From Litorimonas taeanensis (GTDB lineage: Bacteria; Pseudomonadota; Alphaproteobacteria; Caulobacterales; Maricaulaceae), in assembly GCF_003634015.1 (NCBI RefSeq), contig NZ_RBII01000001.1, positions 372,001-436,000 on the forward strand: DNA of 64,000 bases, read 5' to 3'. This document shows, in pieces, positions 5,260 through 20,800 of the stretch (positions within the stretch are counted from its first letter, which is position 1; every line of letters starts with the position of its first letter). A program made the position numbers and the translations under genes. A model generated the notes under the pieces. The model saw only the letters and a list, made by a program, of their open reading frames with translations. It was not told the origin of the DNA and made no database searches.

Positions 5260-6753
5260 CTAAAATGCTGCCCCTTCATACTCTTCAGGGGCCAAATTGC
5301 CGAATTTGGTCAGGTCTGCGTTAAATGACAGTTTAACCGTTCCAATGGGGCCATGACGTTGTTTTCCGATGATAACTTCGGCTTTGCCGTAGAGTTTTTC
5401 CATCTCTTCTTGCCACTGAATGTGCTCATCCGTGCCCTCTGATGGTTCCGCCCGCGCGAGATAATATTCTTCTCGGAACACGAACATAACAACGTCGGCA
5501 TCTTGCTCGATCGAACCGGATTCACGTAGGTCAGAAAGTTGCGGACGTTTATCGTCACGCTGTTCGACTTGCCGTGAAAGCTGGGCGAGGGCGAGGACAG
5601 GAATGTCGAGCTCTTTGGCAAGGGCTTTCAGTCCCTGCGTAATCATCGAAACCTCTTGCACGCGGTTCGCTTGGTTGTTCATGGCGTTTCCGCCCGTCAA
5701 GAGCTGCAAATAGTCCACCACAATCATGTCGAGGCCCACCATGCGCTTCAAACGTCTGGCTCGTGCGGAGAGGGCTCCAATCGAAATGCCGCCCGTATCA
5801 TCAATATGAAGAGGGATGCGGCTGATTTCATCGGCGCTATCACGGATGTGTTCATATTGTTCTGTGTTAATGTCGCCCCGCCGAATACGATGGGAGGGCA
5901 CGCCAGAATGTTCCGCCAGCAAACGTGTGGCAAGCTGCTCTGATGACATTTCGAGAGAGAAAAACCCCACGACGCCGCCATCAACGGTTTTTTCTACGCC
6001 GTTTTCATCACGTTCGCGTCGAAACTTTTTTGCAATATTAAAAGCAATATTGGTCGCGAGAGAGGTCTTACCCATGGAAGGCCGCCCTGCCAGAATAATA
6101 AGGTCAGAACGATGCATGCCGCCAAGTTGTCTATCAAGATCCACCAACCCCGTAGACGTCCCCGAAAGATTGCCGTCACGTGAAAAAGCGGCGCTCGCCA
6201 TTTCAATGGAGTGGATGAGGGCGGTTTCAAAAGAAACAAATCCACTTTGCGTTCCGCCAATCTCGGCCAGATTAAAGAGCTGACTCTCGGCTTGAGTGAT
6301 TTGTTGCCGGGCATCCATATCGCTATCAGGATCTTTGGCGCCATTTTTAATCTCTTCCCCAAGGCGAATGAGTTCGCGGCGCATAGCCAGATCAAAAATC
6401 AGCTTGGCATATTCGGGGGCTGTAACGCCGGGCGGCGCTGAGTCGAGCAAAAGGGCTAGATATTCCACGCCGCCAATATCAATCAGCGTTTCATCTTGGC
6501 TGAAACGGTTTTTAAGAACAATCGCGTCAGCGAGTTTGCCGTGTTCGATCAAGACAGAGATAGAGTCGAATATGCGGACATGGATAGGGTTGTAAAAGTG
6601 CTTTGCTTGCACAATCCCGCTTACGCGGTGGTAAACCTCATTATCATAGAGAAGCGCGCCCAATAGAGCTTGCTCCGCCTCTGCGGAATGAGGCGTCGTG
6701 TCAAGAACCCCCTCAGATGATGGGCCGACGTCATTATCAGATGTAAATACCAT
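5260..6753 (-). CDS. dnaB: replicative DNA helicase DnaB
   Basis: Hexameric 5'-3' helicase that unwinds DNA at the replication fork. At 497 codons the length is normal. Residues about 20-120 form the N-terminal DnaG-interacting domain (HSAEAEQALLGALLYDNE). The RecA-like ATPase has Walker A GRPSMGKTSLA at about 224-234, Walker B-like MIVVDYLQLL near 350, and the DnaB motif LSDLRESGSIEQDADVV near 410. No intein is visible at the usual P-loop site. AGGAA lies about 8 bases before the ATG. Upstream on the same strand is a MoxR ATPase; the 122-base gap holds a hairpin and three GGGGATAA repeats. Confidence 0.97.
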   Translation of the reverse strand: MVFTSDNDVGPSSEGVLDTTPHSAEAEQALLGALLYDNEVYHRVSGIVQAKHFYNPIHVRIFDSISVLIEHGKLADAIVLKNRFSQDETLIDIGGVEYLALLLDSAPPGVTAPEYAKLIFDLAMRRELIRLGEEIKNGAKDPDSDMDARQQITQAESQLFNLAEIGGTQSGFVSFETALIHSIEMASAAFSRDGNLSGTSTGLVDLDRQLGGMHRSDLIILAGRPSMGKTSLATNIAFNIAKKFRRERDENGVEKTVDGGVVGFFSLEMSSEQLATRLLAEHSGVPSHRIRRGDINTEQYEHIRDSADEISRIPLHIDDTGGISIGALSARARRLKRMVGLDMIVVDYLQLLTGGNAMNNQANRVQEVSMITQGLKALAKELDIPVLALAQLSRQVEQRDDKRPQLSDLRESGSIEQDADVVMFVFREEYYLARAEPSEGTDEHIQWQEEMEKLYGKAEVIIGKQRHGPIGTVKLSFNADLTKFGNLAPEEYEGAAF

Positions 6754-6809
6754 GCCGTATTCCTAGTCTGATTCTTGCGGAAGAATATCCGAACAGATAC
6801 AGAACAAAG

Positions 6810-16926: not shown

Positions 16927-19536
16927 ATGGACCGCGTATTGCAACCCGTAGACGAAACCCCGCTTGTCCCTAGAGCGAAAAGTAAAGGTCTGGGCGCTGT
17001 TCCATTCTGGGTGACTGTTATTGTTATGGCGGCCATTATACTGGCTTGTCTGGTTTTCTTGTTTCTGCAGGCTAGTGGTTTGGGGTGGACTGGCTTTGTA
17101 TTTTTGGGCGGGCTGTCAGTCATCGCCCTGTTTGGCCTTTTAGGTGTGGTGCTGAATCGGCGGGCCGGGGATATGTCCGAAAGAGAGTCCGATTATGATG
17201 CTGTTTTCCAAAACGGGCTTGTGCCTTCTCTTATAGTACAAAACGGCAAACCTGTTCAGGCCAATCAGGCTTATTATAATTTATGCTCACGCCTCGAAGC
17301 CTTTTCTATTGGCGATGAACCACCATCCATTGAGAGAGTATTTGCTTCATCAGAAGCTGAAATGGCGGGTGTGATTTTCCGTTTGCATCATATTCGGCCT
17401 GAAACTGAGACGGCCGAAGAGGTTCTAGACTACATCTCCACAGAGGGTGTCTTAACCCGATATAAAATCTCTGTCCGCCGTCTTGACCACAATGCGACGC
17501 GCTATTTGTGGCAAATATTAGATATTACATCCAAGGGCTCAATGTCCGAAAGTCTGATGACCCAAGCGCCTGTGGGATTGTTTTCGATGTCCAAAGACGG
17601 GCGAGTTTTAGCCATGAATGGAACGCTCCGGAATTGGTTGGGGCTTGAAATGGGGCAATATGCTGAGAAAATGAGCGAATTCATAGAAGCCCCTAAGGCG
17701 CTTTTAGACAGTCTTGCTGTGCCGGGGCGTAGTGTGCGGACGGATACGCGTTTGATTACGCGAAAAGGAGTTGTAACGCCCACTATTGTTGTCGGTCGCT
17801 GGGAGAGCTTAAATAGCGGAGAGTTGGTTTGTAATGCTGCGGTTTATGGACATTCTTCTGCGCCGAAAACAGTTTCCTCTAAGGCTTCCTCCCATATTGA
17901 CGGGCAAGCAATAGGCCGTGGGCACACGGCCTTAGGGTTGAGCGAGGGGCAGTTGGCGGGTTATGCCGCTGCGCCCATTGGGATGCTGGAGTTAAGTCTC
18001 TCTGATGCTTCGCTCGATATTTCTCAAGCGATTGTTACGAGTGTTAATCCTGCTTTTGAACGGATGTGTCAGGGCGTTGAGGCTACACAGAAAAAATTTG
18101 GTGAGATGTTTGCGGTTCGCGAAGGAGAACATCGCTTTCTAGAGCTGAACGCCGTGCAATTCGATGCTGACAAGCCTTTTGATGCGACATTAATCGGAGA
18201 AAATGCTCTGCCTGTCAGCGTTTATATTTTGGTGGATACGGCGCCCCCGCATGTGGATGAACAGGGGCAAACGACGACGACCATATGGGCGTTTTTGGTG
18301 GATGTTAGCGCCCGTAAATCCCTAGAAGATCAGCTTGTACAAAGCCAAAAAATGCAAGCAATTGGGCAGTTAGCCGCGGGCGTGGCTCATGACTTCAACA
18401 ATCTTTTGACAGCGATTCGTTTGAATACGGACGAATTGTTACAACGTCACCCTGTTGGTGATCCTTCTTACCCAGAATTGCAAAACATCAATTCTACGGG
18501 TGCACGTGCGGGGTCGCTCGTGAAAAAGCTTTTGGCGTTTTCACGAAAACAAACACGCCGTATGGAAGTCCTGTCCGTAACAGACTCTTTGTCAGACATG
18601 GTTGTGACTTTACGCCAGACGCTGGGTGAAAAGGCCAAACTGGTCATGGTGCATGGTCGGAATTTGCCGCCTATCATGGCGGATAAAAGCCAAATTGATT
18701 CTGTTTTGATGAATCTTTGCGTCAATGCGCGTGATGCGATGGCAGAGCAAGGCGGCGGGACGATTACTGTCACAAGTAAACATATCGTCCGAGACAAGGT
18801 TAAGGATGCAAGCTTGCAAGAGGCTGTTCGGAATTTGCCGGGGGATGATTTCGTAACAATAGAAGTTGCAGATACGGGCACCGGGATGCCTGATGAAGTT
18901 AAGGCTAAAATATTTGAGCCTTTCTTTACAACCAAAGAGCAAGGCAAGGGCACGGGATTAGGTTTGGCAACCGTATATGGTATCGTGGAGCAATCGGGTG
19001 GGCATCTATCGGTTGAAAGCGAATTGGGTGTGGGGACGACTTTCCGTATTATCTTCCCTGCGGCAGACCCTGAAGTCATTAAGTCTCAATTGGCTGCCCA
19101 AGAGGCGACAGGAGAGTCTGCGTCCGCGCAAAAAGAGGTAAGGAAGCCATCTGATTTAGCGGGCCAAGGGACTATCCTGTTTGTCGAGGATGAAGCTAGC
19201 GTTCGCCTTATAGCGGCGAAAACGCTTCGCAAGCGCGGATATACTGTAGTTGAAGCTGAAGATGGTGAAGAGGCATTGGAAATATTAGAGGATGGTGACC
19301 ATGTCTTCGATATGATGATTTCTGATGTGGTCATGCCGGGTATGGATGGGCCAACTTTGCTGCAAGCAGGAAGATCGCTTTTAGGTCAGGCCCGAATCGT
19401 GTTTATCTCTGGTTATGCAGAGGAGCAATTCTCTGAACTCTTGTCGAAAGAGCCTGATGTAACCTTCCTGCCCAAGCCATTTACCTTGGCGCAATTGGCA
19501 GAAAAGGTGAAGGCAGAGATTGGCGATGCGGAATAA
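16927..19536 (+). CDS. cckA: hybrid histidine kinase CckA (cell-cycle kinase)
   Basis: Membrane-bound hybrid kinase that in Caulobacter relays phosphate through ChpT to CtrA and CpdR. 869 codons. Two transmembrane helices at about 25-75, then PAS-like sensory regions (about 95-200, 205-300 and 330-460). HisKA has AAGVAHDFNNLL with phospho-His at 488. The catalytic domain has VLMNLCVNARDAM, VADTGTGMP and GKGTGLGLATVYGI. The C-terminal receiver domain has SDVVMPGMDGP with phospho-Asp at 800. The order fits CckA exactly, and the neighbourhood cckA-recA-alaS is typical of the class. chpT and ctrA are not in the window. Confidence 0.95.
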   Translation: MDRVLQPVDETPLVPRAKSKGLGAVPFWVTVIVMAAIILACLVFLFLQASGLGWTGFVFLGGLSVIALFGLLGVVLNRRAGDMSERESDYDAVFQNGLVPSLIVQNGKPVQANQAYYNLCSRLEAFSIGDEPPSIERVFASSEAEMAGVIFRLHHIRPETETAEEVLDYISTEGVLTRYKISVRRLDHNATRYLWQILDITSKGSMSESLMTQAPVGLFSMSKDGRVLAMNGTLRNWLGLEMGQYAEKMSEFIEAPKALLDSLAVPGRSVRTDTRLITRKGVVTPTIVVGRWESLNSGELVCNAAVYGHSSAPKTVSSKASSHIDGQAIGRGHTALGLSEGQLAGYAAAPIGMLELSLSDASLDISQAIVTSVNPAFERMCQGVEATQKKFGEMFAVREGEHRFLELNAVQFDADKPFDATLIGENALPVSVYILVDTAPPHVDEQGQTTTTIWAFLVDVSARKSLEDQLVQSQKMQAIGQLAAGVAHDFNNLLTAIRLNTDELLQRHPVGDPSYPELQNINSTGARAGSLVKKLLAFSRKQTRRMEVLSVTDSLSDMVVTLRQTLGEKAKLVMVHGRNLPPIMADKSQIDSVLMNLCVNARDAMAEQGGGTITVTSKHIVRDKVKDASLQEAVRNLPGDDFVTIEVADTGTGMPDEVKAKIFEPFFTTKEQGKGTGLGLATVYGIVEQSGGHLSVESELGVGTTFRIIFPAADPEVIKSQLAAQEATGESASAQKEVRKPSDLAGQGTILFVEDEASVRLIAAKTLRKRGYTVVEAEDGEEALEILEDGDHVFDMMISDVVMPGMDGPTLLQAGRSLLGQARIVFISGYAEEQFSELLSKEPDVTFLPKPFTLAQLAEKVKAEIGDAE

Positions 19537-19571: not shown

Positions 19572-19614
19572 TGTTCCATATTTGTTCTTGCTATAATAGA
19601 ACAAATATGGAACA
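19572..19614 (+). promoter_or_regulatory. recA promoter: two SOS boxes in a perfect inverted repeat around a -10
   Basis: Alphaproteobacterial LexA boxes GTTC-N7-GTTC occur on the + strand at 19573-19587 and, inverted (GAAC-N7-GAAC), at 19599-19613. Together they lie in a perfect 17-bp inverted repeat (19572-19588 and 19598-19614). The 9-base centre contains TATAAT (19592-19597), a consensus -10. LexA bound at either box would cover the promoter. TTGTTC at 19571-19576 is a possible -35 with a short 15-bp spacer. The transcript would start near 19604, giving a leader of about 90 bases. Confidence 0.88.
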
Positions 19615-19620
19615 TAAGTC

Positions 19621-19677
19621 TTACGGCAGTCCGATATAGCCGTAACTTTATTTAGAATATCGAAGGGCTCCGATATT
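19621..19677 (+). promoter_or_regulatory. folded recA leader with two hairpins and an alternative pairing
   Basis: TTACGG (19621-19626) pairs with CCGTAA (19640-19645), and AATATCG (19656-19662) pairs perfectly with CGATATT (19671-19677). The loop of the first hairpin contains CGATAT (19632-19637), which could instead pair with ATATCG at 19657-19662, so the two folds compete. This lies between the predicted start of transcription and the recA ribosome site CTGGAG at 19684. A regulatory role is inference from pairing alone. Confidence 0.4.
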
Positions 19678-19696
19678 TCTCTACTGGAGTTTGACA

Positions 19697-20800
19697 ATGG
19701 CCAGAAACACCACACCTCTTAAAGTCGTCGGCAAGGCTGATGATAAAAATAAATCCGCTGCTCTAGATGCAGCGCTTTCCCAAATTGACCGTGCCTTTGG
19801 TAAAGGCTCTGTGATGAAGCTGGGGCAAAAATCTGCAATGGATGTTGAATCTGTATCGACCGGTTCTTTGGGCCTCGATATTGCGCTTGGCATAGGCGGT
19901 CTACCAAAGGGTCGTATCATTGAAATTTACGGACCTGAAAGTTCAGGTAAGACAACGCTTTCTTTGCATTGTGTTGCTGAAATTCAAAAACAAGGTGGGG
20001 TTGCGGCCTTTATCGATGCAGAGCATGCACTTGATCCTGTTTATGCAGGCAAGCTCGGCGTGGATGTGAATGAACTTTTGATTGCACAGCCTGATACGGG
20101 TGAGCAAGGTCTTGAAATTGCCGATACGCTTGTGCGTTCTGGCGCGATTGATGTTCTTGTTATTGACTCTGTTGCGGCATTGACGCCTCGGGCTGAACTC
20201 GAAGGCGATATGGGCGACAGCTTGCCAGGGTTACAGGCACGCTTGATGAGCCAAGCGCTCCGTAAATTAACGGGCTCGATCTCTAAGTCTGGCTGTATGG
20301 TTATCTTCATCAACCAAATCCGCATGAAGATTGGTGTCATGTATGGTTCGCCTGAAACAACAACAGGCGGGAATGCTTTGAAATTTTATAGCTCTGTACG
20401 TTTGGACATTCGCCGTATTGGTGCCATTAAGCATCGTGACGAGATTGTTGGTAACCAAACCCGCGTTAAAGTCGTGAAGAACAAAGTTGCACCGCCTTTC
20501 CGTCAGGTTGAATTTGATATCATGTATGGAGAGGGTATTTCGAAAACTGGCGAGTTGATTGACTTAGGCGTTAAAGCTGAAGTTATTGAGAAGTCAGGCT
20601 CTTGGTATTCTTATGGTGATGAGCGTATTGGTCAGGGCCGTGAGAATGTACGCCGGTTCTTGAAAGAGAACCCAGATATTGCTGAAGATGTTGAACTTCG
20701 TATTCGTAAGAACGAAGGTCTTATCGAAGAAGAGCTTCTTATGCCAAAAGAAGAGCAAGTTGAGGATGATGGCGACGCGGCCGCTCTTGGTCTCGTTTAG
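19697..20800 (+). CDS. recA: recombinase RecA
   Basis: DNA strand-exchange ATPase and LexA co-protease, the centre of homologous repair and the SOS response. 367 codons, normal for the class. Seen: Walker [10 protein letters not shown] at about 79-87, [14 protein letters not shown], the L2 region with [14 protein letters not shown], and the acidic C-terminal tail EEQVEDDGD. The frame begins at a TTG at 19691, but the ATG at 19697 has GGAG 7 bases upstream and gives MARN. Control by LexA is shown by the SOS boxes upstream. Confidence 0.98.

Follow-up and report, generated by a model that had tools for sequence, protein, structure and literature searches.

A likely double LexA operator and a conserved leader RNA upstream of recA in Litorimonas taeanensis

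Two LexA-like boxes that face each other upstream of recA in Litorimonas taeanensis raise the question of whether both act on one promoter and, if so, on which. RecA both triggers the SOS response and belongs to it; because of this double role, the leak of recA and the steepness of its induction set how easily the whole response fires. The initial annotation had described a 17-bp perfect inverted repeat around a TATAAT, taken as the recA -10, and had proposed that two LexA dimers could sit on this promoter and repress it more tightly than a single box would, or that the repeat could form a cruciform. The locus was analysed in the window (the whole stretch of DNA under study, 64,000 nucleotides) and in related genomes. 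Quite probably, the two boxes form a double LexA operator that acts on a single recA promoter.

The repeat itself is as first described. Its arms are 100% complementary (17 of 17 positions paired) with 9 nt between them, and each contains GTTCCATATTTGTTC, in opposite orientations (Table 1), with TATAAT (19592-19597) at the dyad centre. Both boxes, spaced 26 bp centre to centre, match exactly the alphaproteobacterial LexA operator GTTCN7GTTC (GAACN7GAAC on the other strand), as given for Caulobacter crescentus (da Rocha 2008, as tabulated in PMC9578287). A single match to this pattern is not significant in the window (three against 1.31 expected from shuffles), nor is GTTCN7GTTC enriched genome-wide (64 sites, where the reversed control pattern has 106), so the argument is carried by conservation.

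Table 1. Features at the recA locus, in positions of the window
Feature	Position	Strand	Remarks
cckA-like histidine kinase gene, upstream of recA	16927..19536	+	best NCBIfam match CckA, 581.6 bits, under the cut-off of 1000 set for that model
17-bp perfect inverted repeat, 9-nt centre	19572..19614	.	arms 19572-19588 and 19598-19614; symmetry found in this species alone
LexA box 1 (putative), GTTCCATATTTGTTC	19573..19587	+	exact consensus; last base directly before the inferred -35
LexA box 2 (putative), same 15-mer inverted	19599..19613	-	over the inferred spacer and three bases into the inferred -10
Inferred -35, TTGCTA	19588..19593	+	TTG at the same position in 110 of 114 promoters
TGCTATAAT, extended -10-like sequence	19589..19597	+	among 114 promoters only in this species
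Inferred -10, AACATA	19611..19616	+	17 bp after the -35
Conserved recA leader RNA (model R1)	19617..19699	+	69.7 bits, E 6e-16; one copy in the genome
Leader hairpin 1	19621..19645	+	arms 19621-19627 and 19639-19645; loop bases AGUCC 19628-19632
Leader hairpin 2, strongly covarying	19655..19678	+	loop AAGGGCUC; GGGCUCC 19665-19671
Shine-Dalgarno region, GGAGUUU	19686..19692	+	7 nt complementary (with G-U) to GGGCUCC of hairpin 2
recA coding sequence	19697..20800	+	TIGR02012, 577 bits; ATG 19697, with TTG 19691 also in frame

The genome (2.78 Mb in three contigs, from a species that is presumably marine, judging by its kinship) encodes LexA (one match to TIGR00498, 187 bits, over the curated cut-off), and lexA itself is preceded by GTTCN7GTTC, 51 bp upstream. 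Further boxes precede uvrA/ssb (names that come from reading the translations rather than from a family search), two genes for dinB-like polymerases, the gene for a YifB-type ATPase, rmuC, dnaE1, a cytosine methyltransferase gene and dnaB; together, the box-preceded genes form a recognisable alphaproteobacterial SOS regulon. With rmuC left out, the recA boxes score 20.2 bits, within the range of the other SOS boxes of the genome (13.3 to 22.9 bits). The presence of lexA, the occurrence of the motif at SOS genes and the retention of the pair at recA support the view that both elements are LexA boxes.

Two of these boxes deserve separate mention. The one at rmuC (G000:C2:262668-262682, L239) is the identical 15-mer. 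In the window, a single GTTCTGTATCTGTTC box (6791-6805, minus strand) lies about 50 bp upstream of dnaB, which encodes the replicative helicase (5263-6753, minus strand), and is a candidate SOS link.

The strongest evidence for the pair comes from the family. A recA match was present in 129 of the 137 genomes; six were left out because their match started where the contig starts or spanned only part of the gene, giving 123 loci, and one locus (L152) ended too near recA, which left 122 readable promoters. Allowing at most one mismatch per box and boxes 12 to 40 bp apart, a facing pair is found in 114 of these 122, compared with one of 6,100 mononucleotide shuffles, and box 1 is exact in 108 of the 114. 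Exact facing pairs with a gap of 0 to 30 bp occur in 17 of the 137 genomes, against 3 with a match to the reversed control. Centre-to-centre spacing is 18 bp in 63 pairs, 33 bp in 44 and 26 bp in four, this species included, with 17, 34 and 35 bp once each; the 15 genomes of the window's own genus have spacings of 33 bp (11), 26 bp (three) and 35 bp (one). Relatives likewise have two sites, at other spacings and with arms that are not perfectly symmetric. A single 7-bp deletion (GTTC-TTTTTGC-TTGC against GTTC-TTGC) was considered as the origin of the 26-bp from the 33-bp spacing and set aside, as the recA gene tree had too little resolution to show it: L081, L082 and L083 are close to one another in it, but 33-bp species nest among them.

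The eight promoters in which the rule gives no facing pair include six with a degenerate or missing partner, and two (L100 and L144, genus g18) in which box 1 has the opposite orientation. In the latter, the reversed upstream box stands about 125 bp upstream of recA at a spacing of 34 bp (GAACAAAATTAGAAC), so box 1 does not keep one orientation throughout the family.

The gene order in the window is cckA-like kinase, recA, alaS, the kinase gene reading in the same direction as recA. cckA was detected upstream in 80 of the 114 pair-bearing stretches and not detected in 34; because the pair is kept with or without cckA just upstream, it belongs to recA. A divergent promoter was rejected on the same retention of the pair and on the direction of the upstream gene. 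Seven other facing pairs of LexA boxes were found by pattern in the family, five of them near position 1500 upstream of dnaE1, encoding the alpha subunit of the replicative polymerase (identified by family search in L111 and L125, and by reading the translation in L112, L126 and L127); dnaE1 of L. taeanensis (L246) has one box upstream.

Beyond the family, a second box lies within 85 bp in 70 of 80 named recA loci of Alphaproteobacteria, 36 of them exact (rates in shuffles were 7.5% for any second box and 0.3% for an exact one). Most Hyphomonas- and Robiginitomaculum-labelled loci have facing boxes at 18 to 19 bp; the boxes of Bradyrhizobium recA point in the same direction at 18 bp, as do those of most Rhizobiaceae-like loci at 64 to 68 bp. 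By motif, two LexA boxes at recA are common in Alphaproteobacteria, and the operator pair described here is a lineage variant of this widespread design.

Registering the promoters on box 2, which corresponds to GAACAAAnnnnGTAC in relatives, revealed a shared frame, in which TTG stands exactly 17 bp before TAC, AAC or CAC in 110 of 114. TACAT and TACAA are the commonest -10 variants in the family, and AACAT and AACAA are those of the window's genus and genus g12. The conserved promoter of L. taeanensis would be TTGCTA/AACATA, with transcription starting at about 19623. The conserved GGCAGUCC begins 7 to 10 nt after the -10 in 45 of 49 leaders, so the first hairpin of the leader starts about at the expected transcript start. 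The last half of box 2 is GTAC in 82 of the 114 promoters and GAAC, the LexA consensus, in ten, including this species. As the TAC of that GTAC is also the start of the family -10, these shared bases probably set repressor affinity against -10 strength.

Assignment of the TATAAT as the recA -10 was probably wrong, since it lies between the boxes in one of the 114 promoters, that of this species, and the conserved frame is TTG-N17-TAC/AAC/CAC. It is nevertheless a perfect hexamer at the dyad centre with TG one base upstream, and TGCTATAAT makes a good extended -10 where the ancestral AACATA is a weaker one, so this species could use it. Transcription would then start near 19604, inside box 2, from a promoter whose weak -35 lies inside box 1 and on which two dimers would sit symmetrically. 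This arrangement is unlikely: TATAAT is absent from the other 113 promoters, including those of two relatives with the same spacing (L082 and L083), and a start there would put the beginning of the transcript well upstream of the conserved leader hairpin. A scan for sigma70 consensus promoters did not find the TATAAT promoter, and it did not find TTGCTA/AACATA either. Possibly, TGCTATAAT is a species-specific second promoter.

At the conserved TTGCTA/AACATA promoter, box 1 lies directly against the predicted -35, over bases expected to touch sigma region 4 and the alpha C-terminal domains of RNA polymerase. Box 2 extends across the spacer into the first bases of the -10 (AACATA, 19611-19616), so that both boxes meet one promoter. 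A LexA dimer on either box would exclude polymerase, leaving the promoter free only when both boxes are empty. Compared with one box, two would make the promoter less leaky and let it respond more steeply as LexA falls after DNA damage. That LexA occupies the boxes, where transcription starts and that each box represses are all inferred from the DNA sequence. Of the initial proposal, the identification of both elements as LexA boxes finds support; their occupation by two dimers, with tighter repression, would be the likeliest consequence. As the spacing differs by lineage (18, 26 or 33 bp), the boxes are probably independent sites rather than parts of a fixed cooperative complex. At 10.5 bp per turn these spacings correspond to 1.7, 2.5 and 3.1 helical turns, and the lack of a common helical face speaks against fixed face-to-face contacts between dimers as a conserved feature. 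Counting against the double operator, about 97% of SOS promoters in C. crescentus are reported with one box (PMC12700426), so single-box control would suffice for most SOS genes there, unlike the two facing copies on one promoter seen here.

A different division of labour, in which box 2 is the repressing site and LexA bound at box 1 assists or retains polymerase (optimise-and-repress), is decidedly improbable. Box 1 does lie upstream of the -35, a possible place for an activator, in the 33-bp class and in the Rhizobiaceae-like loci with spacings of 64 to 68 bp, and there is a precedent, to go by its title, in Rhodobacter sphaeroides recA (Tapias 2002, cited in PMC6813329 and PMC9380542). However, in the 18-bp class (63 of 114) the -35 lies within box 1, and here the two abut, which favours occlusion.

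There is very little chance that the inverted repeat works as a folded structure, be it a cruciform in the DNA or a hairpin in RNA read through from cckA: the strong folding potential (-15.4 kcal/mol as single-stranded DNA, z = -9) is to be expected of any such repeat, the loop has 9 nt, there is no terminator-like site in the scan, and the arm cores agree at a mean of 3.3 of 7 positions over the 114 promoters, compared with 3.2 for arms of different genera (means worked out from per-promoter counts), with 7 of 7 only in this species. As arm symmetry is not conserved, the suggestion of a cruciform is left without comparative support, and the perfect repeat is best read as a by-product of two good LexA boxes that agree here by chance, not of selection for a cruciform. 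The lack of a terminator-like site also led to rejection of a cckA terminator, and Rfam matches on the repeat were rejected as chance miRNA- or snoRNA-like ones below gathering scores.

Comparison with known systems shows where the double operator resembles them and where it departs. The recA operator of Rhizobium etli is said to have the motif GAACN7GTAC; it was reportedly the subject of work by Tapias and Barbe (1998, cited in PMC3323433). Box 2 is the positional counterpart of this operator, and the 82 family members mentioned above end in GTAC at the same place; unlike these, L. taeanensis has the LexA consensus GAAC, at the cost of the -10 (AACATA for TACATA). In Rhodobacter sphaeroides, work by Tapias in 2002 reportedly gave LexA a dual activity at recA, and its title is said to speak of 'SOS boxes' in the plural; several boxes are probably present there, as here, at another spacing. 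Facing boxes 22 bp apart, with one mismatch, are found in Tateyamaria (L044) and Marinovum (L064). Both recA boxes are exact matches to the C. crescentus operator, and LexA and the usual SOS targets with such boxes are present in L. taeanensis. The lexA promoter of Escherichia coli has two LexA operators, according to PMC9210283, and is thus like this one in having two LexA sites on one promoter; the LexA motif differs, and the gene is lexA there and recA here. No facing LexA pair at an alphaproteobacterial recA was found in the titles and abstract openings of the literature, many subscription papers being outside reach.

A two-operator recA promoter that is family-wide and has few fixed spacings offers a natural series for testing the number and position of operators against SOS thresholds. 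The same series makes visible the choice of GTAC or GAAC, that is, of LexA affinity against -10 strength in shared bases.

The part of the locus most likely to surprise a specialist is the leader RNA. The 49 aligned leaders of the 26/33-bp clade (from 50 eligible, L133 being dropped for a start codon misfit) form two hairpins. Hairpin 2 has double changes at seven of its eight pairs, with as many as six standard pair types at a single pair, and the whole given structure has 103 doubly changed cells, compared with at most 36 when slid. Run without a given structure, RNAalifold recovers hairpin 2 together with the four inner pairs of hairpin 1, whose core is conserved and whose outer pairs are looser (77% of cells paired). 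The covariance model matches 56 of the 137 family genomes, in eight of 19 genera; in a class sample of 289 it matches only the genome of L. taeanensis itself and, weakly, two others (L251 and L252). Rfam 15 contains no match to the leader in the window, even when E values of up to 5 are admitted, and none at gathering score in nine recA loci; a recA leader RNA was likewise not found in the titles and abstract openings of the literature within reach.

This leader may be able to adopt two folds. In the first, hairpin 2 would form, its loop GGRCU could kiss AGUCC of hairpin 1, and the ribosome-binding site would be free. In the second, GGGCUCC of the hairpin 2 loop would pair with the Shine-Dalgarno GGAGUU or GGAGCC and block translation. 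The loops AGUCC and GGRCU are complementary in all 49 leaders; four of the five loop-loop pairs are invariant and the fifth changes on a single side, which makes the kissing contact no more than a suggestion. Pairing of the hairpin 2 loop with the Shine-Dalgarno region reaches 6 or 7 bp in 33 of the 49, compared with one of 49 for the reversed loop. Two pyrimidines that extend this pairing follow GGAG in 33 of the 49 leader genomes and in none of 46 leaderless recA genes of the family (64 less 18 in which no start codon was found). Against a switch, genus g19 has only 4 bp between the hairpin 2 loop and the Shine-Dalgarno, single-sequence folds disagree (L086 and L147 prefer pairing with the ribosome site, and the other two are mixed), and the leader folds with unremarkable energies overall (z = -0.3 for the longer stretch and -0.6 to -1.3 for single sequences).

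On balance, that the leader functions as a translational switch is a tentative reading, somewhat short of an even chance. Equally tentative, and in our estimation a little below even, is the wider picture of two stacked controls on recA, a facing LexA pair and a new family of leader RNA that toggles between two folds, which would gate RecA synthesis at both transcription and translation. A switch of this kind would add translational control of recA in a clade where the searches found none described. Leaders of the 18-bp class also look hairpin-rich.
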